From NCBI GenBank assembly GCA_017617395.1, contig JAFZWG010000021.1, forward strand, positions 1 through 38,171: 38,171 bases of DNA. Direction: 5' to 3'. A model generated the notes under the pieces. That model made no database searches and was not told where the DNA came from. It saw only the letters and a list, made by a program, of their open reading frames with translations. The DNA is from Lachnospiraceae bacterium (GTDB lineage Bacteria > Bacillota > Clostridia > Lachnospirales > Lachnospiraceae). The position numbers and the translations under genes were made by a program. This document shows, one piece after another, positions 3,571 to 38,171 of this stretch. Numbering within the stretch: the stretch's first letter is position 1; each line of letters begins with the position of its first letter.

Positions 3571-3625
3571 AGCATATCATAAATTTGTTACAGAGTGGTT
3601 GAAAGCATGTTACGATTTCATTACA
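3571..3625 (-). promoter_or_regulatory. Promoter with four 11-bp-spaced GTTACA-type direct repeats (array A)
   Basis: Read on the plus strand, hexamers lie at exactly 11-bp steps: GTTACA 3587, GTTGAA 3598, GTTACG 3609 and ATTACA 3620. On the transcribed minus strand the last unit (TGTAAC) ends 10 nt before a -10 hexamer TATGCT (3576-3571). This is the geometry of OmpR/PhoB-family activator sites that replace a -35 element. The array overlaps the last codons of the HD-GYP gene. It aligns closely with the array at 14473-14538, upstream of a paralogous lipoprotein. Confidence 0.75.
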
Positions 3626-6600: not shown

Positions 6601-6984
6601 CGGAAGACCGTTCTCGTTGTCATACAACACTGCGGAGTAGCCCTGGTCGTGTCTCGTCGGGTCCACCGAGAGGACTCCCTTGTCTCCCTCTTCGGCCGTC
6701 TCGCCGGTTGCCTTGCCGTCCCCGGCCTTCGCCTCATCCGCCGCGTACACCGATTTTCTCGACGCCACAGCCGCAAGTGCCGTCCCGCCGCTGTTTCGTG
6801 CAAAAAGCCATCCGCCCGCTGCGGCGGAAAATGCCATAAAAACAGCAAAACACAGGCACAGACACGCACGGAATCCATGCATGCCGCTCCTGTGTTTTTG
6901 TGTCGTTGTTCTCTGCGCAAGATTGCACAAAACAGGCCGCCGACCGCGCTGTCGGCAACCTCCGTCTCTTCGATTACGCATCAT
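3610..6984 (-). CDS. Membrane propeller / Y_Y_Y / HD-GYP protein (probable c-di-GMP phosphodiesterase sensor)
   Basis: About 1124 residues. Order: basic N-terminus, one membrane helix (FRACLCLCFAVFMAF), then a long extracytoplasmic part with repeats of the two-component-regulator propeller type (GLPTSEANAIAQTPEGFIWI, GLPGNRVRTV, GLSSDVVMRI), a Y_Y_Y-like segment (YSLENPQVSYWLEGFD), a second helix (WWFKLLAVLAALLIAAAV), and a cytoplasmic HD-GYP domain. The HD-GYP motifs are intact: LLHDIGKIGV, the upstream HSFRVAQY, and HHERPDGKGYP. By family knowledge it would hydrolyse c-di-GMP in response to an external ligand, perhaps a carbohydrate as for similar propellers. The start is uncertain: TTG 7035, ATG 6984 (AAAAGGA site, chosen) or ATG 6882 (AGGAG only 4 nt away, giving a compact signal anchor). 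Confidence 0.9.
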   Translation of the reverse strand: MMRNRRDGGCRQRGRRPVLCNLAQRTTTQKHRSGMHGFRACLCLCFAVFMAFSAAAGGWLFARNSGGTALAAVASRKSVYAADEAKAGDGKATGETAEEGDKGVLSVDPTRHDQGYSAVLYDNENGLPTSEANAIAQTPEGFIWIGSYSGLIRYDGNTFVRMDSTGGIASVVSLFVDSKGRLWVGTNDAGVAVIDKGEVRMFRTQDGLKSLSVRAITEDPDGYIYVATTRGIVEINDSMNVRTLEQKLIRDEYIRDLQCSADGVVYGLTQNGALFTLKDGMLDCFYNFPEMGVGLENIVSLCPDPENPGFVYLGTNTSSVIYMDLNTSSLQYTKTSTGNISYINSIEVRPGQLWICADNGIGVMEGESVQLLTKVPMNNSVDHMLTDYQGNLWFTSSRQGVMKIVANSFADVYEWYGLEPEVVNTTCEYHGYIFVGTDTGLTILDNEKVKERWIVTEACTAGGTVIETGNLVTFLRGVRIRSIIADDHDRLWIATYGKYSLICLERHKVVCYTVEDGLPGNRVRTVHECSDGSVLVACTGGAALIRGGRIARTFTEKDGLRNTEILTVEEAPNGDYILGTDGGGIYIFSTSVTPKERNVENGLSSDVVMRIKKDRLRDIYWIVTSNALAFMDANYQVTVVKDFPYSNNFDVYQNSKDEIWVLSSNGIYVVPATALLTGQNIDPVFYSRDNGLPVVPTANSYSALTKQGNLYIAGSTGVALVNIESPVARVDNQHLDNLKMSVPFVLADGVAIYPDEDGTIRIPARVRKVEIQCFVFTYSLENPQVSYWLEGFDSTRISVKRSNLGAVSFTNLSGGTYYFNMQVHDALTSQNQDYRIRIIKHHAVYEMWWFKLLAVLAALLIAAAVGYLIFRRKMNRLIAKEEEQRTFINEMTEAFAKTIDMKDSYTNGHSFRVAQYTTILAKELGYSDDEIEKYHNIALLHDIGKIGVDDKVLKKEGKLEDDEFKQIKSHASRGYEVLKDISIMPELAIGAGAHHERPDGKGYPKGLKGDEIPRVAQIIAVADTFDAMYSDRPYRKRMNFDKAVSIIRDAAGTQLTADVVDAFMRLVEKGYFRAPDDEGGGTTEDIDNVHKSFARAQEIKQEYAEKIAKEAEATAKNDENVMKS

Positions 6985-7059
6985 CTGATTTTCCTTTTCC
7001 CGATCGGGATCCCGCCGCGCGGAACTCCCGTACAAAACGCACTGTCAACTGATACGCAT

Positions 7060-14418: not shown

Positions 14419-14472
14419 CACTTCGTATCTCCTTTTTTCATTCATTCGGGCCGGATTAACCCCCATGCCCTA

Positions 14473-19634: not shown

Positions 19635-21017
19635 ATGATGACAACTTCGTATTGCAAGAAATTTATAACGCTCCTTCTTACCGTCCTCATGACACTGTTG
19701 CTGGTCGCATGCAGCACGCCTGCGGCGACCGATAACGGGACGGCTGCCAAAACCGAGGCAGGAACGGACGCGAAGACAGACACCGACAACACGTCGAAAG
19801 ACAACACCGATAAAACCGATACAACCGATCGCACGACCGACAAGTCCGGCGATTCCTCGTCCGACGTTACCGACGCGACGAACCTCGACGGCAGCGACCT
19901 TTTCACCGACCGCGACCTCGATCAGACGCCGGATCTTACGGACGCTGCGAAGATCACCGTGAGCAACGGCAAGACGATCGACATCACCGAGGAAGGCACC
20001 TATCGAATCACCGGAACGGCGACCGACTGCACGATCCGCATCGACGCGGGCGTCAAGGCGAAGGTTCAGCTGGTGTTCGACGGAGTCACGATCACCAACG
20101 CGGATTTTCCGGCGGTTTACGTAGTGAATGCCGACAAATGCTTCCTCACCTTCGTCGGCTCCAACTCCCTTGCCGTGACCGGCGAGTTCCGCGCAGACGG
20201 CGACACGAACACCGACGCGGTCATCTTCTCAAAGGACGACCTGGTCTTAAACGGGACCGGCTCCGTCACGATCAACTCGGCTAAGGGCAACGGCGTCTCC
20301 TGCAAGGATGACCTCAAGGTCACGGGAGGCACGTACACGGTGACCACCGCCCTCGACAGCTTCGAGGCCAATGACTCCATCGCCGTCAAGGACGGCTCGT
20401 TCACGATCACAACCTCGAAGGATGCCTTCCACAGTGAGGATGAGGACGACAACAGTGTTGGCTATGTCTACATCGGCGGCGGCACGTTCACGATCACCGC
20501 TGCAAGCGACGGCATCCAGGGCACAACGTTCGTCCGCATCGATGGCGGCACGATCAAGATTACCGGCCGCGAGGCCATCGAGGCGACGTACGTCGTGATC
20601 AACGACGGCAACCTCGACCTCTACGGCAGCGACGACGGCATCAACGCCTCGCAGAAGAGCAAGGCGTACAAGACGCCCACCATCGTCTTCAACGGCGGCT
20701 ACACCAAGGTTGCCGTGGGCTCGGGCGACACCGATGCCATCGACTCCAACGGAGACATCTACGTCAACGGAGGAACCATCGACGTCACTTCGGGCGTCTC
20801 CTCCTTCGACTACGAATACAACGCCGAATTTAACGGCGGTACGATTATCATCAACGGCGAGCAGGTCAATTCCATTCCGCAGTCCATGTTCGGACCAGGC
20901 GGCCGCGGCGGCCAGTTCCCCGGCGGCGGCCAATTCCCTGGCGGCGGCCAGCGGCCCGACGGCCGGAAGGGCCGTTCCGGCGACGACGAAAGCTCGTCCG
21001 ATGCTACCGGTGTCTGA
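19635..21017 (+). CDS. Cthe_2159-like carbohydrate-binding lipoprotein (beta-helix)
   Basis: 460 residues. Signal peptide MTLLLVACSTPA with lipobox Cys, then a long Thr/Asp/Lys-rich linker. From about residue 110 the sequence is a regular repeat of strands and turns (ITEEGTYRITGTATDCTI, AYVVIND-type and GGTIKITG-type units), matching the right-handed beta-helix of the Cthe_2159 carbohydrate-binding family (DUF4353). The C-terminal tail is Gly/Pro/Gln-rich (GGGQFPGGGQ repeats) and Ser/Asp-rich at the very end. It should sit on the cell surface and may bind acidic polysaccharide. Start ATG 19635 with a GGGAGGTGATTCCAT ribosome site. It lies directly upstream of a two-component system that may regulate it through array C. 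Confidence 0.85.
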   Translation: MMTTSYCKKFITLLLTVLMTLLLVACSTPAATDNGTAAKTEAGTDAKTDTDNTSKDNTDKTDTTDRTTDKSGDSSSDVTDATNLDGSDLFTDRDLDQTPDLTDAAKITVSNGKTIDITEEGTYRITGTATDCTIRIDAGVKAKVQLVFDGVTITNADFPAVYVVNADKCFLTFVGSNSLAVTGEFRADGDTNTDAVIFSKDDLVLNGTGSVTINSAKGNGVSCKDDLKVTGGTYTVTTALDSFEANDSIAVKDGSFTITTSKDAFHSEDEDDNSVGYVYIGGGTFTITAASDGIQGTTFVRIDGGTIKITGREAIEATYVVINDGNLDLYGSDDGINASQKSKAYKTPTIVFNGGYTKVAVGSGDTDAIDSNGDIYVNGGTIDVTSGVSSFDYEYNAEFNGGTIIINGEQVNSIPQSMFGPGGRGGQFPGGGQFPGGGQRPDGRKGRSGDDESSSDATGV

Positions 21018-21088
21018 CCTGAGACACCACGATTCATTTGACAGTCTGTCGGCCGTGTCCCATCTGTCCCCCACGGAGGGTCACGGCC
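21009..21088 (+). terminator. Hairpins after the Cthe_2159-like gene; weak terminator candidates
   Basis: GGTGTCT (21009-21015) pairs with AGACACC (21022-21028) over the stop codon, and GGCCGTG (21051-21057) pairs with CACGGCC (21082-21088). Neither is followed by a clear U-tract, so read-through into the regulator gene is possible. Confidence 0.35.
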
Positions 21089-21120
21089 ATCCCCCAAAAA
21101 ACAATCCCTGTGTGTATATA

Positions 21121-21150
21121 TTGAGAAAATGGCCCCGTATCGTGTATAAT
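21121..21150 (+). promoter_or_regulatory. Probable promoter of the two-component system
   Basis: TTGAGA (21121-21126), 18 bp, TATAAT (21145-21150), about 57 bp before the response-regulator start. No 11-bp repeat array is seen here, so these genes may be made at a basal level and act on array C. Confidence 0.6.
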
Positions 21151-21207
21151 CAAAGCGAGGGGCCGTTTGTTCCCCTTGTGCGAACTATACTTTGACGGGA
21201 GGTGCCT

Positions 21208-21882
21208 ATGGCGAAGATTCTGATTGCCGACGACGAGCCGGATATCGTCCGACTGATCGAACGGTACGCTATGCGCGAAGGCTACGACGTGACCGGCGTC
21301 GGAAACGGCGACGAAGCGATCGCCGCATGCCGGCGCGAGGATTTCGATGTGATTGTCATGGACGTCATGATGCCCGACACGGACGGTTTCACCGCCTGCA
21401 AGAAGATTCATGAGTTCAAGGACATTCCCGTTTTGATGCTCTCCGCCCGAGGCACCGAGTACGACAAGCTCTACGGCTTCGAGGTTGGCGTCGACGACTA
21501 TGTGACGAAACCGTTCTCCCCGAAGGAGCTTTTAGCGCGCATCCGCGTCATTTTGCGAAGACACAGCGCAGCGAAGGAGGCCCACGCAGGCGAGATTCTG
21601 CGCGGTGCCGGCATCGAGGTCGACACGCTCGGACGCAACGTCCTGATCGACGGCGTGAAGACCGATCTGACCGCCAAGGAGTACGCCATTCTGCAGTGCC
21701 TGCTGCAAAATAAAGGCATCGTGCTCTCCCGCGACAAGATCATGAACGAAGTCTGGGGTTACGACTATTTCGGCGACGACCGTACCGTGGACTGGCAGAT
21801 CAAACTGCTGCGCGGCAAGCTCGGTCCGTATCGCGACAACATACACACAATCCGAGGGGTGGGATACAAATTTGAAGACTAA
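21208..21882 (+). CDS. OmpR/PhoB-family response regulator
   Basis: 224 residues from the ATG at 21208 (GGGAGGTGCCT site; a GTG two codons earlier is less likely). The receiver domain has the acidic pair ADDEPD, phospho-acceptor Asp in VIVMDVMMPDTDG, and the conserved Lys in VTKPFSPKEL. The C-terminal winged helix has LTAKEYAILQCLLQNKG, SRDKIMNEVWGYDY, DDRTVDWQIKLLR and IRGVGYKFED. It acts as a DNA-binding regulator after phosphorylation by the kinase that starts 11 bp inside its 3' end. The TTCCAT array at 19515 is its best candidate target. Confidence 0.95.
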   Translation: MAKILIADDEPDIVRLIERYAMREGYDVTGVGNGDEAIAACRREDFDVIVMDVMMPDTDGFTACKKIHEFKDIPVLMLSARGTEYDKLYGFEVGVDDYVTKPFSPKELLARIRVILRRHSAAKEAHAGEILRGAGIEVDTLGRNVLIDGVKTDLTAKEYAILQCLLQNKGIVLSRDKIMNEVWGYDYFGDDRTVDWQIKLLRGKLGPYRDNIHTIRGVGYKFED

Positions 21883-23470
21883 GAAAAGGCGGTCATTCCG
21901 CTTTAAACTGTGGACATCGTTTGCCGCGTTCACAGCATTTGTCTTTCTGATGCTGTGGCTGTTGCAGACCGTGTTCTTCCAGGGGTTTTACGACAGCATG
22001 ATCAGCCGAAACGCCAAGAAGGTGGCGCACGCTGCGGCCGAAGATATCAAAACCTGCAAAAATGCAGCGGAGATTAAGGAAGTGATCGACCGGTATGCGA
22101 TGGACAACAACCTGATCATTTTCCTTCTCGACAAGACGGACAAAAAATTCCTGATCAGCGCGGATGAGTTCAGTCTGACCATGCGCCCGGGGCGTCGAAA
22201 CGACGATTCCAAAGGACAGCCGGGATTTCAGCCGAACGAGGGACAGAGCGCTTCTCCGGACGACAAACCGGAACCTCCGTCGGAAGGCTTCCCCGACAAA
22301 GAGATGCCGGGCAGCGAGCCTCCGAAGATTCCGGATGACTGGACAAGGAAGGGCGAGCGCACCGACTTCCCCGAGAACGGTCCGTTCAGCGAATGCGCCG
22401 ACCTCATGATCATGAAGACGGACGGCTCCGATACAAGCATCCGCGAAGGCGATCTCTTTATCTACGGACTTGACGTCGACTACTTTGATCCGGACGTCGA
22501 CGCCTGCATCCTCGTCGGTGCGACCGTCGGCACGTCGGGCCCCACGGTTCGCGTGATCCGCGTTCAGCTCATCTGGGCAACCGCACTGTCGCTGCTGATC
22601 GGTTTCGCAATCTCGTGGATCTGGTCCCGTAAGTTTGCCGGACCGGTCGGCACTCTCTCCGAGAAGGCAAAAAAGCTCGGCGAGCGCGAGTATTCAACAG
22701 AGTATCCGCAGGGCTTCTGCTCCGAGCTCGACGACTTAAGTGATACGCTTGACCGCACGAACGACAAATTGATTGTTTCGAAGAATTTTCAGACGGAGTT
22801 GATGGCCAATGTCTCGCATGACCTGCGGACGCCGCTCACGATGATCAAGGGCTACGCCGAGATGATCACCGACATCTCCATCGACGATCCCGAACAGTGC
22901 AAAAACGATATGCAGGTCATCGTCAAGGAGGCCGATCGTCTGACCGCGCTCGTGAACGAGATTCTCGCGTATTCCGAGCTGCAGACGGCGGACAAACTCG
23001 AATATTCTACACAAGTAGACCTTAGTAGTTTAACGAATTCTGTGATTGAGAGTTTCAACACGCTCGGCCGTCCCGACGGCATCACCGTCGAGTCCGAGAT
23101 TGCGGAGGACATCGCGGTTGACGGCAGCCGCAGCCACCTCGAGCGCGTTCTGTATAACCTGATGGAAAATGCTGTCCGCCACACCGGAGAGAACAAGACC
23201 ATCCGCGTGGTTCTCCGAAGAGAGGACGATCTTGCAAAGCTCTCCGTCACCGACTTCGGCGAGGGCATTCCCGCGGAGGAGCTTGCGCACATCTGGGACC
23301 GTTACTACACCGCACGCCAGCGCGGCGGCAAGGGCGTCTCGGGCCTGGGCCTCGCCATCGTAAAGCAGATTGTATCGCTGCACGACGGCCGCTGCGAGGT
23401 TTCCTCGGAGCCGGGCAAGGGAAGCACGTTCACCGTGTCCCTCAAGATTGTTAACCCGCTTTCCAACTAA
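21872..23470 (+). CDS. Sensor histidine kinase with proline-rich extracytoplasmic domain
   Basis: 532 residues; the start appears to be TTG at 21872, overlapping the regulator gene. Helix 1 is FAAFTAFVFLMLWLLQTVFF; an external region of roughly 190 residues follows, with a Pro/Asp/Glu-rich stretch (PDDKPEPPSEGFPD). Helix 2 is LIWATALSLLIGFAISWIW, then a HAMP linker. The catalytic core is intact: H-box LMANVSHDLRTPLTMIKGY, N-box NLMENAVRHT, G1 FGEGIPAEEL, and GVSGLGLAIVKQI. It should phosphorylate the regulator at 21208. The external domain is not one I recognise; its acidic, proline-rich content may suit wall or polysaccharide sensing. Confidence 0.93.
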   Translation: MKTKKRRSFRFKLWTSFAAFTAFVFLMLWLLQTVFFQGFYDSMISRNAKKVAHAAAEDIKTCKNAAEIKEVIDRYAMDNNLIIFLLDKTDKKFLISADEFSLTMRPGRRNDDSKGQPGFQPNEGQSASPDDKPEPPSEGFPDKEMPGSEPPKIPDDWTRKGERTDFPENGPFSECADLMIMKTDGSDTSIREGDLFIYGLDVDYFDPDVDACILVGATVGTSGPTVRVIRVQLIWATALSLLIGFAISWIWSRKFAGPVGTLSEKAKKLGEREYSTEYPQGFCSELDDLSDTLDRTNDKLIVSKNFQTELMANVSHDLRTPLTMIKGYAEMITDISIDDPEQCKNDMQVIVKEADRLTALVNEILAYSELQTADKLEYSTQVDLSSLTNSVIESFNTLGRPDGITVESEIAEDIAVDGSRSHLERVLYNLMENAVRHTGENKTIRVVLRREDDLAKLSVTDFGEGIPAEELAHIWDRYYTARQRGGKGVSGLGLAIVKQIVSLHDGRCEVSSEPGKGSTFTVSLKIVNPLSN

Positions 23471-27109: not shown

Positions 27110-29428
27110 TCAATCCTCGTAGTAATACCGATACTCCGCAAACGGAATCTCCTCGCCGCGGTACCGGAGCGTCAACACATACGTGTAGTAATAGCTGCCG
27201 TAATTGTCCTCCGGATCGTAATACCATGACGTACTGAACAGAATCTCCAGCTCGTCGCTCACCTTGCGCGAATCCTCGAAGAAGAACCGCAGGGATCCGC
27301 CTTCTTCCTTCCTCCACTGTATCTTATCCTTGGGCAGCTTCGTCTCCATCGCCATCAGCTTGCTGTACTGCTCCGCAGCGTACTGAAAGGCCTTGCCGAG
27401 TTCCTCGAGCGTGTAGTCAAACACCTTGCCGGACTTGTTCGAAAAATACTCGGTCCCGTCGACGCCCCGGAGCGCAATATCTCCGGGCACCCAATAGTAG
27501 TCCGTTGCCTCGCCCCAGCAATCCTCGCCGTACAGCAACGGATTTCCCTGCGGATCAAACCAGGCAAGCGCAGAGTACGACGTATCATTGTACAGCTCCG
27601 AATTATCACCGTACAGATACCGCCTGAGCGAGACTTCCGTCAACGGGTCGCCGAGGCTTGCGATCAACGAAAAGCTCGCCGAATCGGTAGCACCGGTCAC
27701 TTTCCTGCCGCTGTGAGAGTCAAACAGATAGCAGCACCGGGACGGCTTTCCTTCCGAATCAAAGAGACAACATCGGACGATGTAGGCAAACAATCTGTCG
27801 CTTCCGACATCCTTCGGCAGCTCTCCGTACGCCGCAATCTCGCACACGTCGAGTCGTCCGAAGCCCGGAAACTCAATGGACTCGAGCACCTTCTCCCGAA
27901 GGAGAACCGTTCCGCGGTAGGCGGCCTTCAGTTCATTTTCGCACGCCGCCGCACTTTCGGCAAAAAGAACACGATGCTCCGCCCGATACTGTTCGCTGTC
28001 GAACTGCGCCAGCACTTCTTCGTTTGCATTTTTCTCCGTAAGCAATATCTTGACCAGATCGGCACTGTATTCATCTCTCTGGAGAAGCATTGAAGACAGC
28101 TTGTTCCCGGCCGCGTCGGTCTTCGTTTCGACGATCGGCAACACGGAATCATAGAATTCATAATATCGCTTGCCTTCGTATCGGACATACCAGTCCAGAC
28201 CGGATTCGTGAACATCTGCGCCGGAAACGTAAAGGATCAGGCTGCTTCCGTCGCCAAGCTCGTACTCGTCGCAATAGCGCTTCTGATCATCAAGCTTCTG
28301 CAGAAAATGCTGCACCGGATACCGTCCCTCATCCTCGACCCGCTCCGCGAACAGCCGGAACGATTTCTGCAAATCCGAGGCCCGGAACGCCATAATCTGC
28401 CAGTCTTCATTTGCCTCCGAGAACAAAATCTGATTGGCCGGTGTAAAGATGTATGCCCCGAGCGGTTGAAGATATACCGCACCGATCTCGGGCAAGAAAA
28501 ACAGCTGTGCAAACTCCGTGAATACGATCGGCGTTCCGTCCGGGAGGAAAAATGCTCTTCCGAAGCCTTCCAGTGTCCCGACATACCCGAACGGGTTGCT
28601 TTCCGCGGACATCTTTCTGTCCGCCTCAAGGGTCACTTCGATCGCCTTCAGAGTTCCGTCGATGTTGACAAGCTGAAAGTCCCCCCTGACGGATTCATAC
28701 TTCGCTATGTCTTCCGCCCACGTCACCTCGCAGATTATTCCGCTGCAATGATCATCATGCGAATAGTCCCCGTCGGTTACGATGGCTCTCAGCCGGTATT
28801 CCATCCGGGCATAAAAGACCACCGGAGCATCCAGGTCCTTCGGCTTTTCCATGCAGCCGATACCGGCGTAACCGTAGGCCGCATGCTCATAGATTTCGAA
28901 AATACCGATGTCGTTTAAGTTGATCGCCGCAACGCGTTTGCTGCGAAGAAGCATCTTCCCTGTGAACTCCGCTGCCATTTCCTTGCGAAGCTGTTCGGCG
29001 CGTATTGAAAAGCCCTTCTGGTCCCGCTCCTTGTACGCCTCCGAATCAAACGTTTCGAACGTATCACCATCAATCTGGTATTTCAGGACAAGTTTCGTAA
29101 GGGGTCTGTCTTCCTTCCAGTCGTAGAATCCGTTCGGATTTCTCGCGTCCACCATCTCAACAATCTCGTACGAGACCGCCTTCGGCAGCACTTCCGTCGG
29201 CGTCGGAGTCGGACCTGTCGTCGGCGTGGGCGTGATCTCCTCCGTGGGCGTCGGCGTTACGGTCGCGGTGACCGTCGCCGTAGGCTGCCCGGAAGGCGTG
29301 GCGACCGCTGCCGTCACCGAGGGTTCCGGCGTCGGGGAGGTTGCATTTTCCGCCTCTTTCTTCCCGCAGGCGCAAAGAAGCAGTATAGCAAGCAGCGGAA
29401 GTGCTGCTCTTATCTTTCTCAATTTCAT
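27110..29428 (-). CDS. Large two-module lipoprotein, paralog 3
   Basis: 772 residues from the ATG at 29428; a TTG two codons earlier (29434) has better ribosome spacing (AAAGGA then 5 nt) and may be used instead. Signal peptide to AILLLCACGKK, then a Thr/Pro-rich linker (TPTPTEEITPTPTTG). Two module copies are visible: one begins FDSEAYKERDQKGFS and reaches FEIYEHAAYGYAG; the other begins FDSEQYRAEHRVLFAESA and reaches VCEIAAYGELPKDVGS. WGEATDYY near the end is shared with paralog 2. Unlike its paralogs it has no array promoter; it is the last gene of an operon with a patatin-like lipase. Function unknown. Confidence 0.85.
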   Translation of the reverse strand: MKLRKIRAALPLLAILLLCACGKKEAENATSPTPEPSVTAAVATPSGQPTATVTATVTPTPTEEITPTPTTGPTPTPTEVLPKAVSYEIVEMVDARNPNGFYDWKEDRPLTKLVLKYQIDGDTFETFDSEAYKERDQKGFSIRAEQLRKEMAAEFTGKMLLRSKRVAAINLNDIGIFEIYEHAAYGYAGIGCMEKPKDLDAPVVFYARMEYRLRAIVTDGDYSHDDHCSGIICEVTWAEDIAKYESVRGDFQLVNIDGTLKAIEVTLEADRKMSAESNPFGYVGTLEGFGRAFFLPDGTPIVFTEFAQLFFLPEIGAVYLQPLGAYIFTPANQILFSEANEDWQIMAFRASDLQKSFRLFAERVEDEGRYPVQHFLQKLDDQKRYCDEYELGDGSSLILYVSGADVHESGLDWYVRYEGKRYYEFYDSVLPIVETKTDAAGNKLSSMLLQRDEYSADLVKILLTEKNANEEVLAQFDSEQYRAEHRVLFAESAAACENELKAAYRGTVLLREKVLESIEFPGFGRLDVCEIAAYGELPKDVGSDRLFAYIVRCCLFDSEGKPSRCCYLFDSHSGRKVTGATDSASFSLIASLGDPLTEVSLRRYLYGDNSELYNDTSYSALAWFDPQGNPLLYGEDCWGEATDYYWVPGDIALRGVDGTEYFSNKSGKVFDYTLEELGKAFQYAAEQYSKLMAMETKLPKDKIQWRKEEGGSLRFFFEDSRKVSDELEILFSTSWYYDPEDNYGSYYYTYVLTLRYRGEEIPFAEYRYYYED

Positions 29429-29454
29429 TGTCAACTATATCCTTTCAACGTTGC

Positions 29455-29955: not shown

Positions 29956-30810
29956 CTACTCCTGCGCCAGAAATGCGCGAACCGCCTCGAGCGTGCGCTC
30001 GCCGACCTCGCGACCGTGGTTGTACACGCGCATCAGCTCCTCCTCGCTCTTTTCGAGGTGCGAGATTGCGAGCGGCGCGTCCGGCCGAAGCACCAGGACC
30101 GCCCCCTCGGCTTCCCTCTGAGCAACGTACGCGGTCTCTTCGTTGTACATCACATGGCGGTACTCCATCGCCTCCACCGCCTTCGGATACTTGCGAAGCG
30201 CAAGCCGGATCCACGTCATCTTGTCGTTCGGCTCCTTAAGATACCCCTCCGGCTGCGTGAGGATCACGATGTTTCGCTCGTACCCCTGCCCCTCCATGAA
30301 CCGAAGAGGGATCGAGTCGGAGATGCCGCCGTCCAGGAAACGTCTCTTGCCGATCGGTACGACCTTGGACACCACCGGCAGGGACGCCGACGCGCGGATC
30401 CATTGCATGTCGTACGCACCGCCGTCGCGGAGCCGCTTATACACGGGCCGTCCGGTCTCCACGTCGGTCGCCGTCGCGAAGAACTCCATCGGATTCGCGG
30501 CAAATGCCTCCCGGTCGAACGGATCGAGCTCGTTCGGCAACGTGTCGTAGCAGAATTTGGCGCCGAAGATATCGCCCGTCAACAGCCACGAAAGATAGCT
30601 TTTGTAGCGCCAGTTGCCAGCGTATTTAACGTTGTAGCGGATACCGCGTCCCATCTGTCCGGACTTTAGGTTGCAGCCGAACGCCGCTCCCGCGGACACG
30701 CCGACCGCCCCGCCGAACGAGACGCCTCCCTTCTCCATCCAGACGTCCAGAATGCCCATCGTAAACAAGCCGCGCATTCCGCCGCCCTCCAAAACAAGGC
30801 CGTACTTCAT
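29956..30810 (-). CDS. Patatin-like phospholipase
   Basis: 284 residues with the patatin fold motifs: oxyanion-hole segment LVLEGGGMRGLF at the N-terminus, the nucleophile elbow GVSAGAAFG, and the catalytic Asp in FLDGGISDSIPL. By family this is a Ser-Asp dyad lipid acyl hydrolase acting on membrane lipids or lipid-like esters. No signal peptide is seen. Start ATG 30810 with a GGGGAG site. It follows the small coiled-coil protein gene by 40 nt; the gap contains one copy of the CATTTTCC octamer. Confidence 0.93.
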   Translation of the reverse strand: MKYGLVLEGGGMRGLFTMGILDVWMEKGGVSFGGAVGVSAGAAFGCNLKSGQMGRGIRYNVKYAGNWRYKSYLSWLLTGDIFGAKFCYDTLPNELDPFDREAFAANPMEFFATATDVETGRPVYKRLRDGGAYDMQWIRASASLPVVSKVVPIGKRRFLDGGISDSIPLRFMEGQGYERNIVILTQPEGYLKEPNDKMTWIRLALRKYPKAVEAMEYRHVMYNEETAYVAQREAEGAVLVLRPDAPLAISHLEKSEEELMRVYNHGREVGERTLEAVRAFLAQE

Positions 30811-31219: not shown

Positions 31220-31258
31220 AAAAAGCGGAACGCAGGTGTCCCCCCAAAGACACCTGCG
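31220..31258 (-). terminator. Intrinsic terminator after the kinase gene of the LRR locus
   Basis: CGCAGGTGTC (31231-31240) and GACACCTGCG (31249-31258) form a perfect 10-bp stem with an 8-nt loop, 28 bp after the stop at 31286. On the minus strand it is followed by TTCCGCTTTTTGCGG, a T-run inside a second small hairpin. Confidence 0.7.
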
Positions 31259-31285
31259 CCCCATGCTCGGCTATCCGATTGTATG

Positions 31286-32161
31286 TCAAAACCTGACGCA
31301 GATTGTCAGGCACTCCCCCTCGTATTCGGCGGAGATACTGCCGTTCATCCGCTCCGTCAGCGCCTTCGCGATAGAGAGCCCTAAGCCCGTCGAATCGCGC
31401 GACGCCTTCTGCGTGTAGAAGCGGTCGAACAGATGCGCCACGGCATCGGCCGACAGCGCGCTCGCTTTGTTCGAGAAGCGGACCGTACCGTCCTCGGTGA
31501 GCGAGATTGCGAGGTCGCCCTCGCTGTATTTGACGGCGTTGTTTAAGAGATTGTTGAAAACTCTGGCAACCGCTGCCCGGTTGGACCTTCGCTCCACGCG
31601 GGTTTCGGTGATCTCCACCTGCGGCTCGATGCCGCGTGCGGAAAGGGCCGGGTAAGCGCCTGCAATGCTCTCCTCCAGCACCTGGTTGATCAGCACATCA
31701 TCCTCCATCGGCATCGACTCGTTGGAGAGGATGACGGAGTAGCGGAACAGCTCCTCCGTGAGCTGCCGCATGATCTCGGCGCGCTCCTCGATGATGGCGA
31801 GATACTCCGCCTGTTTCTGCGGGTCGCTCGTTCGGTGCAGCAGATCCAGGTACCCGCAGATGGCCGTAAGCGGCGTCCGCAGGTCGTGGGAAATGTTCGT
31901 GACCGCCTCCTTCACCTCGCGGTCCCCGGTGTGGTACCGAAGATACGCCTCGCGGAGTTTGCAAAGCTCCCGGTTGATGGTGTCGGCAAGGTCGCACATC
32001 ACGGAATCACTGCTGTCCAAGGTGATGATCGTGTTGGTGTCCCGGTTCAGTTTTTCCTCCATTTGCCGTCCGATGTCCCGCGCGGCTTTCCGCATCAGGA
32101 TGATCTTCCAAAGGCTCAGGATAAGCGCGACGCTCACCGCCGCCAGAATCGCATAAATCAT
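31286..32161 (-). CDS. Sensor histidine kinase with a single N-terminal helix
   Basis: 291 residues. One membrane helix (MIYAILAAVSVALILSLW) and no external sensor domain. The core has the H-box VTNISHDLRTPLTAICGYL, N-box NNLLNNAVKYS, and G2 motif STGLGLSIAKALTERM; the usual G1 DxGxG motif is not obvious (FSNKASALSADAVAHLF). Probably works with the response regulator at 36569-37240, whose gene lies at the far end of the same locus. Lacking its own sensor domain, it may rely on a partner, and the membrane LRR proteins encoded just upstream are candidates. Start ATG 32161, 15 nt after the second LRR gene. Confidence 0.9.
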   Translation of the reverse strand: MIYAILAAVSVALILSLWKIILMRKAARDIGRQMEEKLNRDTNTIITLDSSDSVMCDLADTINRELCKLREAYLRYHTGDREVKEAVTNISHDLRTPLTAICGYLDLLHRTSDPQKQAEYLAIIEERAEIMRQLTEELFRYSVILSNESMPMEDDVLINQVLEESIAGAYPALSARGIEPQVEITETRVERRSNRAAVARVFNNLLNNAVKYSEGDLAISLTEDGTVRFSNKASALSADAVAHLFDRFYTQKASRDSTGLGLSIAKALTERMNGSISAEYEGECLTICVRF

Positions 32162-32176
32162 AGGCGCCTCAAAAAA

Positions 32177-33202
32177 CTACTTTGTTACCGTCTGCCCGGG
32201 CTCCGTGGAAATCCACAGATCCTGCGAGCATCCGACCGCGTTGATCTTCGTATTGTTGTTGTACATGCACCCCGCATAAATGAGTTTCGGGCAAAAACTG
32301 ATGTCCAGCACTTCAAGCCGGTTTGAACCGCACTCGAGGTTCCACAGTTTCGGAGACCCGTGAACATCCAGCTCCATAAGGTAATTTGACTCGCAATCGA
32401 GCTCCTCCAGGAACGCTGTCTCCGTGGCCAGTCGCAGTTCCGTCAGTATATTCGATGCGCAATACAACAGCTTCAGTTCCCTCTGCCCGCTTACATCCAG
32501 CACAACCAGATAGTTGCTTTCGCACTTCAGCTCCTGCAGCTTAGTGTTGGCCGAAAGATCGAGCTGAATCAACTGGTTACCTCTGCAGTTCAGCACTTCA
32601 AGACTCGGTGCCCCGGCAAGATTCAGAACCGCGACATCGTTCGTTTCGAGGTTCAAAACACGCAATTTCGGATTGTCCCCGAGAATCAGTTTTTTCATTC
32701 CTTCATACATCAACGGGGTGTATGTCCACTGCTCCATTCTACCCTGCTCGGAACAATCCACGGACTCCAGTTCCGTGTTGGAGCTCAGATCCAGAGTTTC
32801 AATCATGTTGTGGCTGCAGTCAAGCACCGCAAGCTTCGGGTTGTTTCGAAGCGACAGCTCCTCGATGCCCCATCTCTGACAGGTAAATGTCGTCAGATTC
32901 GGGAAAACCGACAGCCATTGCGAATTCCACTCCGTGCATTTTATGTAGTCCGGCAACTCGGGAAGCGATATGGTTTCCACCGCGTCCATCTCCTCCTTTG
33001 CAAACACGCCGTCGTGGTTTACGTCGACTGTCTCCTCCGCATACTTTTGAAATTCGCCGTGAAAGGCGTTGGCAAACGGTTTCTCATCCGGAACCAGATA
33101 TCCGCTCCCGACGAGGGACAAAAACGCCAGACACGCGGTAACTACTGCCGCCAGGAGGTACGCCAGTGTGACAGCCGGTTTTGTTTCTTTTTGCTGCTTC
33201 AT
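32177..33202 (-). CDS. Membrane-anchored leucine-rich-repeat protein with EF-hand-type loop (LRR-2)
   Basis: 341 residues from the ATG at 33202, which overlaps the stop of LRR-1 (ATGA). One helix (TLAYLLAAVVTACLAFLSLV) anchors it, with most of the protein outside. Near residue 60 lies DVNHDGVFAKEE, a 12-residue EF-hand-type calcium loop. About nine leucine-rich repeats of roughly 21 residues follow, of the form LxxLxCxxNxLxxLDLS (LKLLYCASNILTEL, LEELDCESNYLMELDV), with a Cys at one fixed position, as in the Cys-ladder LRRs of internalin J. Likely binds an extracellular ligand. It lies between an ABC transporter and a histidine kinase, so a sensing role is inferred. Confidence 0.85.
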   Translation of the reverse strand: MKQQKETKPAVTLAYLLAAVVTACLAFLSLVGSGYLVPDEKPFANAFHGEFQKYAEETVDVNHDGVFAKEEMDAVETISLPELPDYIKCTEWNSQWLSVFPNLTTFTCQRWGIEELSLRNNPKLAVLDCSHNMIETLDLSSNTELESVDCSEQGRMEQWTYTPLMYEGMKKLILGDNPKLRVLNLETNDVAVLNLAGAPSLEVLNCRGNQLIQLDLSANTKLQELKCESNYLVVLDVSGQRELKLLYCASNILTELRLATETAFLEELDCESNYLMELDVHGSPKLWNLECGSNRLEVLDISFCPKLIYAGCMYNNNTKINAVGCSQDLWISTEPGQTVTK

Positions 33203-34740
33203 GACTCCCCCTCCTCCCAATACGTAAGGCCATCGCTCCAGTCCTCTTCTTCCACTATGTGAACCGTAACATCCGGATCTTTGATGAACTGCCTCGGAAT
33301 CGTATTGATATATATGTCTGTAAGTCTCGGGTTCGAAGCGCACTGCACTCCTGCATTGTCAGCGTAACCGAAGCCATCCGCAAAATGTATCCGCAGCTCC
33401 GTGTACAGATTCTCCGTACAGTTCAGGGAATAGAGAATCGGCGAATCCCCGAGCAAAAGCTCAACCATATTGTTCTGCGAGCAATCCACCTCCTGAATCG
33501 CTAGACACTTGCTCAGATCCAGGTTCCGGATTTGGTTGCCTCGGCACTTCAGATACGTAAGCTGGTTTTTCTCCCCGAGAACCAGTTCACTCAGCTGATT
33601 GCCGTTGCACTCCAGTGAACCAAGCTTCGGATTGCCGGACAAATCGAGTTTCTCAAGAGGATTTTCCGAACAATACAGTGCATGCAACTTCGGGCAATGT
33701 GTGACATCCAAAGTTGTAAGCCCGATGCCCCGGACTCCCAGATGGGTCAGTTCCGGGTTATTGCTTAGGTCAAGCTCAAAATCTTTCGGAAACGGATTGT
33801 TGTCGCATGCAAGTATCTGCAACTTCGGATTGCCGCTTACATCCAGCTGTGAGACATGGTTATTAGAAAAATGCAGTGTCTCCAGTTCCGGAAACCGGCT
33901 TACATCCAGCTGCCGGATGCGGTTGTTCGCGCAGTAAAGTACCTGGAGATTTCGAAGCCCGCTCAGATCCAGTTCCCGGATCCTGTTGTTCATGCAGGAG
34001 ATGTATTCGTATTTCTCATCATCGCAATCCTCAGCGGACCAAAGCAGCAATTCCTCAAGATCGTTATCGTCGCAATAAAGCGAATTCATGTGCTTAAGAC
34101 CGCGAAGATCCAGCGACTTCAGGTGATTTTTGTTGCATTCAAGCCCCAGGAGCTCCGGCATCCCGGAAAGATCCAGCTCCGTGAGCGCGTTACTGTTGCA
34201 TTCCAGATACTTAAGCGTCTCGATCTGAAGCGGAAGTGAAGACAATATGTTGTTCGAGATTTGCAGGGATTCCAGCTTGCTCTTCCTGCTTAATAACAAT
34301 GTTCCCAGAAAATTGTTGTTGCAATTCAGCTGCAGAAGTCCCGGGTTAGCCCGGAGATCCAGCTCGTAAAGCACATTGTCCGAGCAGTTCAGCCTTGTGA
34401 GTTTCCGATTCCCGCTCAGGTTTAATTCCGAGATATAGCCGTACCGGCAGTCCAGTTCCTCCAGATTGCGGAACACCTCGATCCCGCGAAGGTCACCCAG
34501 GTCGTCCATGTTGTCAAGGTGAAGTTCGCGGACGTTCCCGGCTTCCGACCAGCTGAGTTTTCCGTCATGATTCAGGTCCAGGTACGAGAGCACCACCGAG
34601 TGAAACGCGGGGCTCGGAAATGTCTTGTCGATGTCGTACACAAAGTACCGATTCACGACAAATGTAATCCCCAGCCACAGCGCAACCGGCGCTGCCACAC
34701 AGTACAGAACCCATTGTTTTATTCCTAATGGTTTCTTCAT
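33199..34740 (-). CDS. Membrane-anchored leucine-rich-repeat protein with EF-hand-type loop (LRR-1)
   Basis: 513 residues from the ATG at 34740 (GAGGGGGAATACT site). Single helix WVLYCVAAPVALWLGITFVV, then the EF-hand-type loop DLNHDGKLSWSE, then about 16 LRRs of roughly 21 residues (LTRLNCSDNVLYELDL, LHALYCSENPLEKLDLSGNP, LTYLKCRGNQIRNLDLS) with the same fixed Cys. The C-terminal region after the repeats is acidic (VEEEDWSDGLTYWEEGES). The two LRR genes look like unequal-length duplicates. Similar LRRs mediate protein or host binding in internalins; here the setting with a two-component system and ABC exporter suggests ligand capture for sensing or immunity. Confidence 0.87.
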   Translation of the reverse strand: MKKPLGIKQWVLYCVAAPVALWLGITFVVNRYFVYDIDKTFPSPAFHSVVLSYLDLNHDGKLSWSEAGNVRELHLDNMDDLGDLRGIEVFRNLEELDCRYGYISELNLSGNRKLTRLNCSDNVLYELDLRANPGLLQLNCNNNFLGTLLLSRKSKLESLQISNNILSSLPLQIETLKYLECNSNALTELDLSGMPELLGLECNKNHLKSLDLRGLKHMNSLYCDDNDLEELLLWSAEDCDDEKYEYISCMNNRIRELDLSGLRNLQVLYCANNRIRQLDVSRFPELETLHFSNNHVSQLDVSGNPKLQILACDNNPFPKDFELDLSNNPELTHLGVRGIGLTTLDVTHCPKLHALYCSENPLEKLDLSGNPKLGSLECNGNQLSELVLGEKNQLTYLKCRGNQIRNLDLSKCLAIQEVDCSQNNMVELLLGDSPILYSLNCTENLYTELRIHFADGFGYADNAGVQCASNPRLTDIYINTIPRQFIKDPDVTVHIVEEEDWSDGLTYWEEGES

Positions 34741-34824
34741 AGTATTCCCCCTCAAACAGAAGACCGATGTCCTCTGACAAGCTGCATTTTCCGAATTCCC
34801 GCGTCCCGTGCCGTGTCGCCCGGG

Positions 34825-35541
34825 TTACGCAAGATTCTTCCGATGCAGCAACACTACCGAAACCGCCGCGAAGACGATTCCTGCAAGAATGCCGCCGATC
34901 AGCGTCGCGGAAGCCGTCACCGGAATCCGGGTTACATCGTCCCCCAGATGGGTCGTCGGGATCAGTGAGACAAACCGGCGAAGACCGTCGCTCTCCGCGG
35001 CTGCATTTGCCGTCAGAACGCCCGCTTCCGCCGCCGCAAAGAAGACGAGCAGGATGGTGATGATATTCTCATATCCGCTGCTTAGGACGCTGATCGCCAT
35101 GGACAGCCAGACAAATGCAAGCATCAGAACAAACGTCATTGCGCTGTTCGTAAAAAGCGTGCCGCTGCTCATGACCTCCTCCACCGCATACTCTCTCGCA
35201 TGCTGCGCAAAGTACACGGTCAGATTGTAGACGACCAGCAGGAAAATGCAAAGAGACGTGAGCACCAAAGACCAAGAGGCGGCGATCGCCGTCCGCGAGA
35301 AGCCCGCTGCCACCTTGTTCCGCAGGATGCCGTAGTTCTGCTCCTGCGTCACGAAGACAACGGTCATGATCCCGGCCACGGGAATCAGAAAAAGATAGGA
35401 CTGCGCGTACGCCATCACTGCCTGGTACCCCGGGCAGAGCGGTAACGTGAGCATGCCCGCACAGATTGCCGCCGCTGCCGCGATCACCGGCCGCAGGCTG
35501 CACCAGAATCTTGTAAAATCATTTCGCAATAATCGAGTCAT
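34825..35541 (-). CDS. ABC-2-type transporter permease of the LRR locus
   Basis: 238 residues with about six helices: VIAAAAAICAGMLTLPL, YLFLIPVAGIMTVVFV, LVLTSLCIFLLVVYNL, MTFVLMLAFVWLSMAIS, IITILLVFFAAAEAGVL and LIGGILAGIVFAAVSVVLL. NYGILRNKVAAGFSR resembles the segment seen in lantibiotic-immunity and related ABC-2 permeases. Start ATG 35541 overlaps the ATPase stop (ATGA). LRR-1 follows 84 nt downstream, and that gap contains one copy of the GGAAAATG octamer. Partner of the unusual ATPase at 35538. Confidence 0.85.
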   Translation of the reverse strand: MTRLLRNDFTRFWCSLRPVIAAAAAICAGMLTLPLCPGYQAVMAYAQSYLFLIPVAGIMTVVFVTQEQNYGILRNKVAAGFSRTAIAASWSLVLTSLCIFLLVVYNLTVYFAQHAREYAVEEVMSSGTLFTNSAMTFVLMLAFVWLSMAISVLSSGYENIITILLVFFAAAEAGVLTANAAAESDGLRRFVSLIPTTHLGDDVTRIPVTASATLIGGILAGIVFAAVSVVLLHRKNLA

Positions 35542-36449
35542 ACCTTACCTCCCCCAAGTGCGTCCAGCAGATTTTCCGCACGCTCGGTGCGCTCCTCAAG
35601 CTCCAGCACATCGCACCCTTCCTTCGCAAGGGCCATAACAAGCTCCGTGATCTGCGGCTTGCCGTAGATGTCCGCCGTGTCGGCGTCCAGAACGCGGTGC
35701 TTGATGTCTTTTGCCACCAGGACCCGGGCAAGCGCGTTGACGTCGGAGACCTTCACGCGCAGAGCCGTCTCCTGCGCTGCCTTCATCTCCTCCGACGAAA
35801 GCTCCCTCACGAGATCGCCGTGGGTGAGAATTCCGTACCGGTGAGCCAGCCCGAAGAGAGTCTCCGGGTCCGTGGCAGTCATAAGGATCGTGATCTCCCG
35901 CTCCCGGTTGAGGAACTCCAAAAGTGCCGCCACCGACGCCCTCTGCTGTGCGCCGAGGCCCTCCAGGACACCGTCCGCCAGAAGCAGATCCGGATTGCCG
36001 CACAGAGCCATGGCGATCGCCGCGATCACCGGCTTTTCCTCCGGAAGCTTCGCTGCCTTCGTGCGGGCAAACTCCGTAAGTCCGGTGAGCTCCATCACCT
36101 CGGCCGGCCGGTCCTTCCCCGGGATTCCGAGGAGACGGCACTGCCTTTTTAAGTTGGCCGCAAGCGTCTCTCCCGGCACGAGGAATCCCCCTGCCGCTGC
36201 AACACCGATGCGCCGCTGCTCCGATACAAAGCCTTTTTGCGAATTCTCCCTGCCGAAGATTTCATACCCCCCGCTTGTGGGCTTCGCAAGCCCCGCAAGC
36301 ACGCGAACCAATGTCGACTTGCCTGCACCGTTTTTGCCGACAAGCCCGTAAATCATGCCTCTGGTCAGATGCAGATTGATTTTGTCAAGCGCGACGATGC
36401 GCCCGAACCGCTTTGTGAGATCTTTTGTTTTCACTGCATACTCTGCCAT
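35538..36449 (-). CDS. ABC-type nucleotide-binding protein with degenerate catalytic motifs
   Basis: 303 residues, ABC fold overall. Walker A is perfect (GLVGKNGAGKST). Beyond it the usual motifs are lost while the framework persists: the Q-loop region reads GVAAAGGFLVPGE; the signature, normally LSxGxxQR, reads KLPEEKPVIAAIAMA; Walker B and D-loop, normally LDEPxxGLDP, read LLLADGVLEGLGAQQ, so the catalytic Glu is Gly; and the switch His region, normally SSHxxxE, reads MTATDPETLF. The C-terminal accessory part is as in lantibiotic-type ATPases. It may bind ATP without normal hydrolysis, acting as a regulator or structural partner. The frame is continuous, so a frameshift does not explain this. 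Start ATG 36449 follows array D. Confidence 0.85.
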   Translation of the reverse strand: MAEYAVKTKDLTKRFGRIVALDKINLHLTRGMIYGLVGKNGAGKSTLVRVLAGLAKPTSGGYEIFGRENSQKGFVSEQRRIGVAAAGGFLVPGETLAANLKRQCRLLGIPGKDRPAEVMELTGLTEFARTKAAKLPEEKPVIAAIAMALCGNPDLLLADGVLEGLGAQQRASVAALLEFLNREREITILMTATDPETLFGLAHRYGILTHGDLVRELSSEEMKAAQETALRVKVSDVNALARVLVAKDIKHRVLDADTADIYGKPQITELVMALAKEGCDVLELEERTERAENLLDALGGGKV

Positions 36450-36472
36450 TTCGCATCCCCCCTTTCGGCCTC

Positions 36473-36530
36473 AGAATAGCACAGCGCTGTTAAGAAACCG
36501 ATTAAGATAACCGTTAAGATTCCGTAAAGA
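36473..36530 (-). promoter_or_regulatory. Promoter with four TTAAGA-type direct repeats (array D)
   Basis: Plus strand: GTTAAGA 36489, ATTAAGA 36501, GTTAAGA 36513 and GTAAAGA 36524, spaced 12, 12 and 11 bp. On the minus strand the last unit (TCTTAAC) ends 10 nt before the -10 TATTCT (36478-36473), which has an extended TGC in front. It lies between the response-regulator gene and the ATPase gene and is the likely target of that regulator. By family knowledge NisR- and SpaR-type regulators use similarly spaced repeats. Confidence 0.75.
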
Positions 36531-36568
36531 TTCGCGCACACATTCGTAAAATGCTTATTTTCCGTCGT

Positions 36569-37240
36569 TTAGCTTTCTGCCGGCACAAACCGGAAGCCGA
36601 TCCCCCAGACTGCAGCAATGCAGTCGCGGCCGCAGATGTCCCGCAGCTTCTTTCGCAGGTTGTGGACGTGCACCTTGAGGGAGTCCTCGGTGCAGTCCGG
36701 CGTATCCCGCGCGATCAGCTCAAGAAGCGACAGCTTCGCCACCACGCGGTCCTTGTTGGTCAGTAAGATCTTCGCGATCGCACACTCCGTGCGGGTGAGC
36801 TTAGCGGTTTTGCCGCCGTACGCCGCCGTGTGCAGATCGCAGTCGAGAACGATGCCGTCGCAGGAGATTCTCGTCTCCTCCTGAGGGCGCCTCCGGTCGC
36901 GGAGAGCAACCCGCACCCGCGCCACAAGCTCCTCGACGCGAAAAGGCTTCGTGATGTAGTCCGCCGCGCCGCCGATCAAAAGATCCACCTTCTCCATGGT
37001 ATCGGCCCGCGCACTCACGATGATCACCGGAATTCCCGCAAAGCTCGGCAGCACTTCCTCCCCGGAAAGCCCCGGCAGCATGCGGTCCAGAAGAATCAGG
37101 TCCGGCCGGCCCGCGGCCACCGCCATCAAAGCCTCCGTCCCCGAGTATGCCTTTCGCACGGCAAATCCTTCCCCCGTCAGCGTCTCCTCCAAAAGCTTGC
37201 TGATGGCAACATCGTCATCCACGATCAAAATCGTATCCAT
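36569..37240 (-). CDS. OmpR/PhoB-family response regulator of the LRR locus
   Basis: 223 residues. The receiver has VDDDVAISK, phospho-acceptor Asp in LILLDRMLPGLSG, and Lys in ITKPFRVEEL. The DNA-binding half has LTRTECAIAKILLTNKDR, EDSLKVHVHNLRKKL and VWGIGFRF. Start ATG 37240 with a GGGGAGGTATCTTTC site. It is first in a series of regulator, ATPase, permease, LRR-1, LRR-2 and kinase, all on one strand. Separation of regulator and kinase genes by five kb of transporter and LRR genes is unusual. It probably activates the promoter at array D. Confidence 0.94.
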   Translation of the reverse strand: MDTILIVDDDVAISKLLEETLTGEGFAVRKAYSGTEALMAVAAGRPDLILLDRMLPGLSGEEVLPSFAGIPVIIVSARADTMEKVDLLIGGAADYITKPFRVEELVARVRVALRDRRRPQEETRISCDGIVLDCDLHTAAYGGKTAKLTRTECAIAKILLTNKDRVVAKLSLLELIARDTPDCTEDSLKVHVHNLRKKLRDICGRDCIAAVWGIGFRFVPAES

Positions 37241-37538: not shown

Positions 37539-38171
37539 TCAACCGGCTCTTCTGCTGCCGCGGGCAGGCTGGCCGAAGCCGTCCGGAGCGTAACCCACAA
37601 CGCTGCTCACGGTGTTGCCGTTCTCATCGAGCTCCTCCACGGACTCGAGCTGACCGTCCAGAACGCGCACGAGCTTCGTGCCGTAGCGGGCCGCCTCCTC
37701 GGAGTGCGTAACCTGCACGATCGTCTTGCCGTAGCGGCGGTTGATGTCGCGGAAGAGCTCCATGATCTTCATGCCGGTCTTCGAGTCGAGGTTACCGATG
37801 GGCTCATCGAGGAAGAGGATCTCCGGGTCGAACACCAGGGCTCTTGCGATCGCCACTCTCTGCTGCTGACCGCCGGAGAGCTCGCGGGGCGTGAGCTTTC
37901 TCTTGTCCTTCATACCGATGATGTCCAACACCTCGTCGATCTTTGCCTTGTACGAGGAGCGCTTGCGGCCCGCGATCATCAAAGGAAGCGCGATGTTATC
38001 CTCGACGTTAAGGTTCGGAACCAGGTTGTAGAACTGGAATACAAAGCCGATCTTGTCGCTGCGCATGTCGCACAGCTCCTTCTCCTTCAGGGTCTTTAAG
38101 TCCCTGCCCTCGATGCTCACGCTTCCCGAGGTCGGACGGTCCAGACCGCCCAGAAGGTAGAGAAGGGTGGA
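37539..38171 (-). CDS. ABC transporter ATP-binding protein, MacB/LolD type (5' end outside window)
   Basis: At least 210 residues are visible; the frame is open to base 38171, where it reads STLLYLLGGLDRPTSGSV, so Walker A lies just outside. Q-loop FVFQFYNLVPNLNV, signature LSGGQQQRVAIARAL, Walker B ILFLDEPIGNLDSKTG and switch His VTHSEEAARYG are intact. The FQFYNLVP and GNLDSKTG segments mark the MacB/LolD/FtsE-like group, which works with FtsX-like permeases. A C-terminal extension of about 40 residues follows the core (VEELDENGNTVSS). Last gene before the terminator at 37340; the permease would lie upstream, outside the window, or elsewhere. Confidence 0.9.
   Translation of the reverse strand, partial: STLLYLLGGLDRPTSGSVSIEGRDLKTLKEKELCDMRSDKIGFVFQFYNLVPNLNVEDNIALPLMIAGRKRSSYKAKIDEVLDIIGMKDKRKLTPRELSGGQQQRVAIARALVFDPEILFLDEPIGNLDSKTGMKIMELFRDINRRYGKTIVQVTHSEEAARYGTKLVRVLDGQLESVEELDENGNTVSSVVGYAPDGFGQPARGSRRAG

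Follow-up and report, generated by a model that had tools for sequence, protein, structure and literature searches.

The LRR-containing block and its conservation

The window analysed here is a 38,171-nucleotide (nt) stretch of DNA from a Lachnospiraceae bacterium (contig JAFZWG010000021.1; assembly GCA_017617395.1, 97 contigs, 85% complete). Its minus strand carries, at 31286–37240, a response regulator (RR), an operator array, an ATP-binding cassette (ABC) ATPase, a permease, two leucine-rich repeat (LRR) proteins, LRR1 and LRR2, and a histidine kinase (HK), in that order. The OmpR-type RR (36569–37240; 223 amino acids, aa) matched Pfam Response_reg (4.6e-24) and Trans_reg_C (2.6e-15). Reading of the promoter sequence that follows located array D (36489–36530), four TCTTWAC-like direct repeats whose starts lie 11, 12 and 12 nt apart, and a probable -10 box, TATTCT (36473–36478), placed by our reading 10 nt past the fourth site. 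Next come the ABC ATPase (35538–36449, 303 aa), degenerate according to Pfam and motif alignment, and an ABC-2-like permease (34825–35541, 238 aa) with approximately six helices and no large outer domain (hydrophobicity, AlphaFold). LRR1 (33199–34740, 513 aa) comprises an N-terminal anchor helix, an EF-hand-like N-cap and a cysteine-ladder LRR solenoid (Pfam, AlphaFold), a plan shared by LRR2 (32177–33202, 341 aa; Pfam, repeat motifs). The HK (31286–32161, 291 aa) has HisKA and HATPase_c domains, no sensor domain detectable by Pfam and one transmembrane helix, corresponding to a single hydrophobic segment (residues 5–23) that also occurs once in each of five relatives. A probable intrinsic terminator with a 17-pair stem (31226–31263, terminator scan) lies directly 3' of HK. 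Neighbouring genes overlap by 4 nt at ATPase/permease and LRR1/LRR2, and gaps of 84 nt and 15 nt separate permease from LRR1 and LRR2 from HK. An earlier note on this DNA had described these genes, their order and spacing, array D, the degenerate ATPase and the one-helix, sensor-less kinase, and the coordinates and measurements agree. The region it delimited held the right genes but left out the two flanking genes that define the block.

The identical gene set, in the same order, was found in 6/22 genomes of the genus (the window genome, G003, G007, G002, G019 and G005). HK scores in these six were E ≤ 1.8e-176, and the next best match in the genus scored 5.3e-103. All six LRR loci were bordered 5' by an ABC ATPase gene that we take to be LolD/MacB-like (37539–38171 on the minus strand, running off the window) and 3' by a gene for a patatin-like phospholipase (29956–30810, minus strand; Pfam Patatin, 1.5e-20). 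In G009, G010 and G014 the same ATPase gene was followed by the patatin gene, with no RR, ABC, LRR or HK gene between them. Because these three genomes possess the flanks without the block, this suggests the block was gained or lost whole and that its genes come and go together. Other genes followed the LolD/MacB-like ATPase in G016, G012, G021, G008, G001 and G018, and the contig of G020 stops there. An assembly artefact was ruled out since six genomes agree. The neighbourhood, which the earlier note had proposed to look for in other genomes, is therefore not peculiar to one contig, and the refuting condition named in that note, a neighbourhood found nowhere else, does not apply. LRR1 was also 96% identical to a protein of a locus from the uncultured Lachnospiraceae bacterium RUG12897. 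T-rich-tailed hairpins occurred 3' of HK in 5/6 LRR loci (none in L025), a count made with no null control.

We searched for the system beyond the genus with two profiles. An HK profile run against 397 family and 392 order genomes, with up to six candidates scored per genome, returned no LRR-type HK score outside the genus. At 22 loci from the order (L235–L256), open frames contained at most one LRR motif each. From an LRR1 profile run against the 397 family genomes (up to three candidates scored per genome), 30 loci were scanned, and RR, HK or permease matches within their ~1.5 kb flanks were limited to two orthologues; L219 and L231 matched distant ABC ATPases. The same flank scan of 27 further LRR loci detected module genes in orthologous loci only. 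Judged by eye, the neighbours of LRR proteins at L257, L258, L259, L260 and L262 did not include an RR-ABC-HK module. A two-component-like pair does lie downstream of the LRR gene at L259 and is, by our reading, of a different kind.

Kinship with four-gene modules and the degenerate ATPase

HK alignment matches occurred in 99/397 family genomes at E ≤ 1e-45. We compared 89 loci (5 LRR-type, 84 non-LRR), covering 75 of the 79 family HK matches at E ≤ 1.2e-74 (G339, G059, G269 and G421 were left out). Nine further genus loci were added from the genus HK search, and LRR genes were detected by counting motifs in chosen open frames near HK. Most non-LRR loci read RR-ATPase-permease-HK. The exceptions in order were L144, where RR follows the permease, and L136 and L165, where a gene sits between RR and ATPase; a few loci had an additional gene, in some cases a further permease. 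The motif count turned up no LRR gene beside any of the 84 non-LRR modules, although the sequence of L109 and L154 stops too near the kinase to tell. Between permease and HK, the LRR-less loci L131 (4713–6541), L136 and L167 hold what we read as a second permease-like gene, and L131 also encodes there an apparently exported protein of the erythromycin-esterase family (Pfam 1.1e-30). This slot looks like an accessory site.

The six LRR-type HKs formed a single clade (100/100) in the HK tree (89 rows; bootstrap not fully settled). This clade grouped at 98/92 with the genus's own LRR-less HK clade, which includes a second HK of the window genome and has members in all six LRR genomes. In family loci outside the genus, best HK identities were ~40–61%. 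The window locus matches the four-gene module in gene set, gene order and the 11/12/12 spacing of TCTTWAC-like sites, with two extra genes inserted. The LRR system thus looks like a derived copy of this common module, and duplication followed by rebuilding is the simplest history.

The ATPases differ markedly between the two types of locus. We aligned 85 sequences, 79 LRR-less and 6 LRR-type (no ATPase was obtained from L109, L154, L122, L125 or L146, and the permease of L120 was not called). The catalytic Glu, D-loop Asp and switch His were present in 79/79 LRR-less ATPases, including L123, L129 and L145, whose starts are incomplete or misframed, and in 0/6 of the LRR-type. The signature Ser followed the same pattern (78/79, the remaining one being a gap, versus 0/6). 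Both nucleotide-binding residues, the Walker A Lys and the Walker B Asp, were kept in 6/6 LRR-type ATPases. An ATPase with this set of residues appears catalytically dead and should not hydrolyse ATP. The role of immunity pump, which the earlier note had offered for the ABC pair, is unlikely because the four catalytic features are lost in all six copies. One-active-site ABC heterodimers exist, and a transporter that still pumps, whether its ATPase is weakly active by itself or teams up with a second one, for example the sibling module's, could draw on the sibling-clade HK found in 6/6 LRR genomes and on the Asp that stands at the catalytic Glu position in three copies. With signature motif and catalytic Glu both missing from the degenerate subunit, however, the two composite sites of a heterodimer would each be incomplete, and we regard an active pump as very improbable.

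Divergence and selection bear on whether the ABC pair is merely decaying. In five genomes that carry both module types (the window genome excluded), mean ATPase identity was 63% among LRR modules versus 81% among sibling modules, with corresponding values of 77% versus 71% for HK, 85% versus 80% for RR and 49% versus 46% for the permease. The lower ATPase identity would be expected if the ABC pair were a relic and the LRRs ordinary surface proteins that had come under RR control, as would the occurrence elsewhere in the family of LRR proteins with a similar N-cap beside unrelated genes. Such decay is nonetheless unlikely, as ATPase and permease each keep an open frame in 6/6 LRR genomes, the 4-nt overlap between them and the two Walker residues are equally conserved, and the ratio of nonsynonymous to synonymous substitution (dN/dS) is low for both genes. 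For window versus G003 and G007 this ratio was 0.13 and 0.17 for the ATPase, indicating that purifying selection persists, and 0.23 and 0.29 for the permease (the RRs of L021 and L022 in this set were shortened by five codons). The ATPase is thus constrained, though probably not for hydrolysis. Between the window and L022, synonymous divergence (dS) was uneven, at 0.32–0.45 for RR, ATPase and permease, 0.90–1.02 for the LRR genes and 0.70 for HK, which may reflect allele exchange within the block.

LRR proteins, operator and response regulator

LRR1 and LRR2 both matched Pfam LRR_4 (3.7e-29 and 2e-11, respectively), and the EF-hand match of LRR1 fell below the Pfam cut-off. Their 21-residue repeats carry a Cys at a core position in 11/13 motifs of LRR1 and 6/7 of LRR2. 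The AlphaFold model of LRR1 (mean predicted local distance difference test score, pLDDT, 88.1) shows the N-terminal helix, the N-cap and a long solenoid, and its closest solved structure by both sequence and fold was InlJ (3bz5), the title of which names a cysteine ladder. Each protein has a single hydrophobic helix at its N terminus, in the window as well as in the five relatives. No C-terminal hydrophobic anchor, nor any internalin-type cell-wall anchor, was found in the window LRRs, in which the N-terminal segment stands alone; the sorting motif was not pattern-searched. In another genus of the family, L257 (6236–8324) encodes two look-alike tandem LRR lipoproteins with a similar N-cap and unrelated neighbours.

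The number of LRR motifs differed between genomes. When the window was compared with G007, positions that we presume to be concave had changed in 55/80 cases versus 39/80 for presumed convex positions (pooled P = 0.016), an excess due to LRR2 (P = 0.007) more than LRR1 (P = 0.42). Such changes on the concave face are weakly suggestive of a changing ligand. Taken whole, the LRR genes showed no sign of positive selection (dN/dS 0.25–0.29).

Operator sites were scored in the promoters of 79 LRR-less and 5 LRR-type modules (window not counted), allowing one mismatch per site. The full 11/12/12 chain was present in 32/84; at least three sites occurred in 42 promoters, at least two in 67, and one or none in 17. 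Letter-shuffled promoters gave no chain of at least two sites. The TCTTWAC-like array is therefore a putative operator widespread among the family modules, and proposes a regulator binding site for many that are uncharacterised. A TAT-type box stands at the same place in relatives, and TATTCT was not in the list returned by the consensus promoter scan. The strict array occurred once in each of the six LRR genomes and in none of the three LRR-less genomes tested, and with up to three mismatches no other strict RR target was found in the six LRR genomes beyond the system's own operon.

Sites 1, 3 and 4 kept their register, none with more than two mismatches, in 8/9 sibling promoters of the genus, and site 2 had at least three mismatches in 9/9. 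The window genome's own sibling module (L154) sits at a contig end, with its promoter outside the sequence. LRR-type and LRR-less sibling RRs were nearly identical in the region that we take to hold the DNA-recognition helix and differed at the start of the receiver domain. Together this suggests separate inputs and overlapping output for the two modules. Because the recognition region is nearly the same and sibling sites 1, 3 and 4 are kept, the LRR system may also switch on the intact sibling pump.

Proposed signalling and relation to known systems

Among known systems, the nearest are the family's own four-gene modules, which appear LanF-like by their ATPase. Two LRR-less ATPases had as their best match the lantibiotic-protection model TIGR03740 (3.2e-68 and 3e-64; 217 and 230 bits, cut-off 310), and the window ATPase reached 82 bits against the same model. 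The RR, ATPase, permease and one-helix HK of these modules are of the types found in the LRR system, and gene order agrees in most loci and operator spacing in many, but no LRR gene was seen in the 84 loci compared and their catalytic residues are intact. CprABC-CprRK and LanFEG, which confer lantibiotic resistance or immunity, likewise combine ABC-2 type, six-helix permeases with a two-component system, but have two permease genes where the window locus has one, and LRR proteins go unmentioned in section 5 of the source (PMC5786555). The window permease could be modelled with a mean pLDDT of 74.7, resembled ABCG, NosY and PmtCD only weakly in fold (best E 2.9e-3) and retrieved nothing credible in a sequence search of the PDB. 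With a single permease gene and weak fold matches, identity as a plain LanFEG system was rejected.

BceAB-BceRS resembles the LRR system in having an ABC transporter, a sensorless kinase and a regulator, and its transporter is needed for sensing, BceAB being described in the covered text of PMC10314905 as strictly required for BceS activation. BceB has ten helices and an outer domain of 200–250 aa, whereas the window permease has ~6 helices and no such domain; BceS has two helices and the window HK one; and the Bce-type ATPase cycles, whereas that of the window is dead by sequence. A plain Bce module was therefore rejected on the permease, the one-helix HK and the degenerate ATPase. GraXRS-VraFG and BraDE-BraRS, whose permeases are of the Bce type, are alike in one respect, namely an ABC pair that is described as sensor rather than detoxifier. 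VraFG is presented in this way in PMC4314665, and no LRR proteins appear in the text covered for these systems. InlJ shares the core-position Cys in 21-residue repeats and was the best hidden Markov model, sequence and fold match, at a score far below the InlJ model cut-off; the window LRRs differ in that their anchor is an N-terminal helix and their genes lie within a signalling operon. We place the LRR system with the ABC-two-component peptide-sensing systems, though not as a member of Bce or LanFEG. The earlier note had called it possibly new and knew of no described system of this composition, and none was present among the matches listed in the open-licence literature (titles and abstract starts). 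Its composition is unmatched there, but it does not appear to have arisen from nothing, given its likeness to the common four-gene module.

We interpret the block as a duplicated peptide-defence module turned into a non-hydrolysing surface receptor, which would link LRR ectodomains to a sensorless kinase, and put the probability of this reading at roughly 50%. Two LRR proteins seem to have joined a pump whose engine was lost, and for this reason the system probably senses something extracellular rather than pumping it. A kinase without a sensor must get its signal from partners. On this reading, a ligand-gated relay, the LRR ectodomains would bind an extracellular ligand, such as a bacteriocin or a cell-wall or polymer fragment, and the ligand-bound LRRs would change the state of an ATP-bound, non-cycling permease complex. 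This complex would contact the one-helix HK and switch it, HK would phosphorylate RR, and RR would bind the four-site operator, raising the levels of ATPase, permease, LRR proteins and kinase. In its boldest form, which we put forward tentatively as possible rather than likely, this would be a bacterial LRR receptor pathway in which the ectodomains signal through the dead ABC relay to HK, driving their own operon and possibly the sibling pump via the shared operator.

The main rival makes the LRR proteins output. Anchored in the membrane, they would trap a bacteriocin or some other ligand short of its target, much like LanI lipoproteins, the kinase would sense through the permease or the membrane, and the ABC pair would only signal. 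In the sections of PMC5786555 covered, LanI binders lower the lantibiotic concentration at the membrane, and a lipoprotein is drawn beside CprABC (section 5). The layout of the operon is compatible with such a role: the RR operator is located upstream of the LRR genes, and a consensus scan of the 84 nt between permease and LRR1 gave nothing promoter-like. That the permease-HK slot of L131 holds another apparently exported protein also points this way. Loss of catalysis together with gain of the LRRs, however, suggests that the LRRs assumed part of the ABC's job, and we consider pure output somewhat doubtful.

Several points weigh against the receptor interpretation. Bce signalling is thought, according to the covered text of PMC10314905, to be started by ATP hydrolysis, which the LRR-type ATPase should lack. 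Three LRR copies have Gly in place of the catalytic Glu, but G002, G019 and G005 have Asp, which is a milder substitution. Because the six LRR copies form a single clade, the loss of catalysis and the gain of LRRs count as one correlated event, and absence of the block from other genus genomes may stem partly from incomplete assemblies. No concave excess was seen against the closer G003 (13/80 versus 10/80; LRR1 6/52 versus 4/52, LRR2 7/28 versus 6/28), and the LRR faces were set from the repeat register with no control LRR family. A regulon beyond the system's own operon is only a possibility, as each LRR genome has a single strict operator and the window genome's sibling promoter lies beyond the contig end. 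More generally, the mechanism is read from sequence, with expression, binding and phosphorylation inferred.

If the receptor interpretation is true, the block is a natural experiment separating sensing from pumping in ABC-kinase modules, in which hydrolysis was removed and the module kept. It would then become directly testable whether such kinases are activated by ATP cycling ('flux') or by conformation alone, and bacteria would have an LRR-based receptor whose kinase, regulator and operator are known.

Elsewhere in the window, three large lipoprotein-like proteins of 795, 754 and 774 aa (1129–3516, 12202–14466 and 27110–29434) had no Pfam match and were interrelated, mostly at 24–31% identity over partial length. 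A 1141-aa protein (3610–7035) combines regulator-propeller repeats with Y_Y_Y and HD domains, and 19635–23470 encodes a Cthe_2159-type carbohydrate-binding protein (Pfam 9.5e-68) followed by an apparent response regulator/kinase pair.

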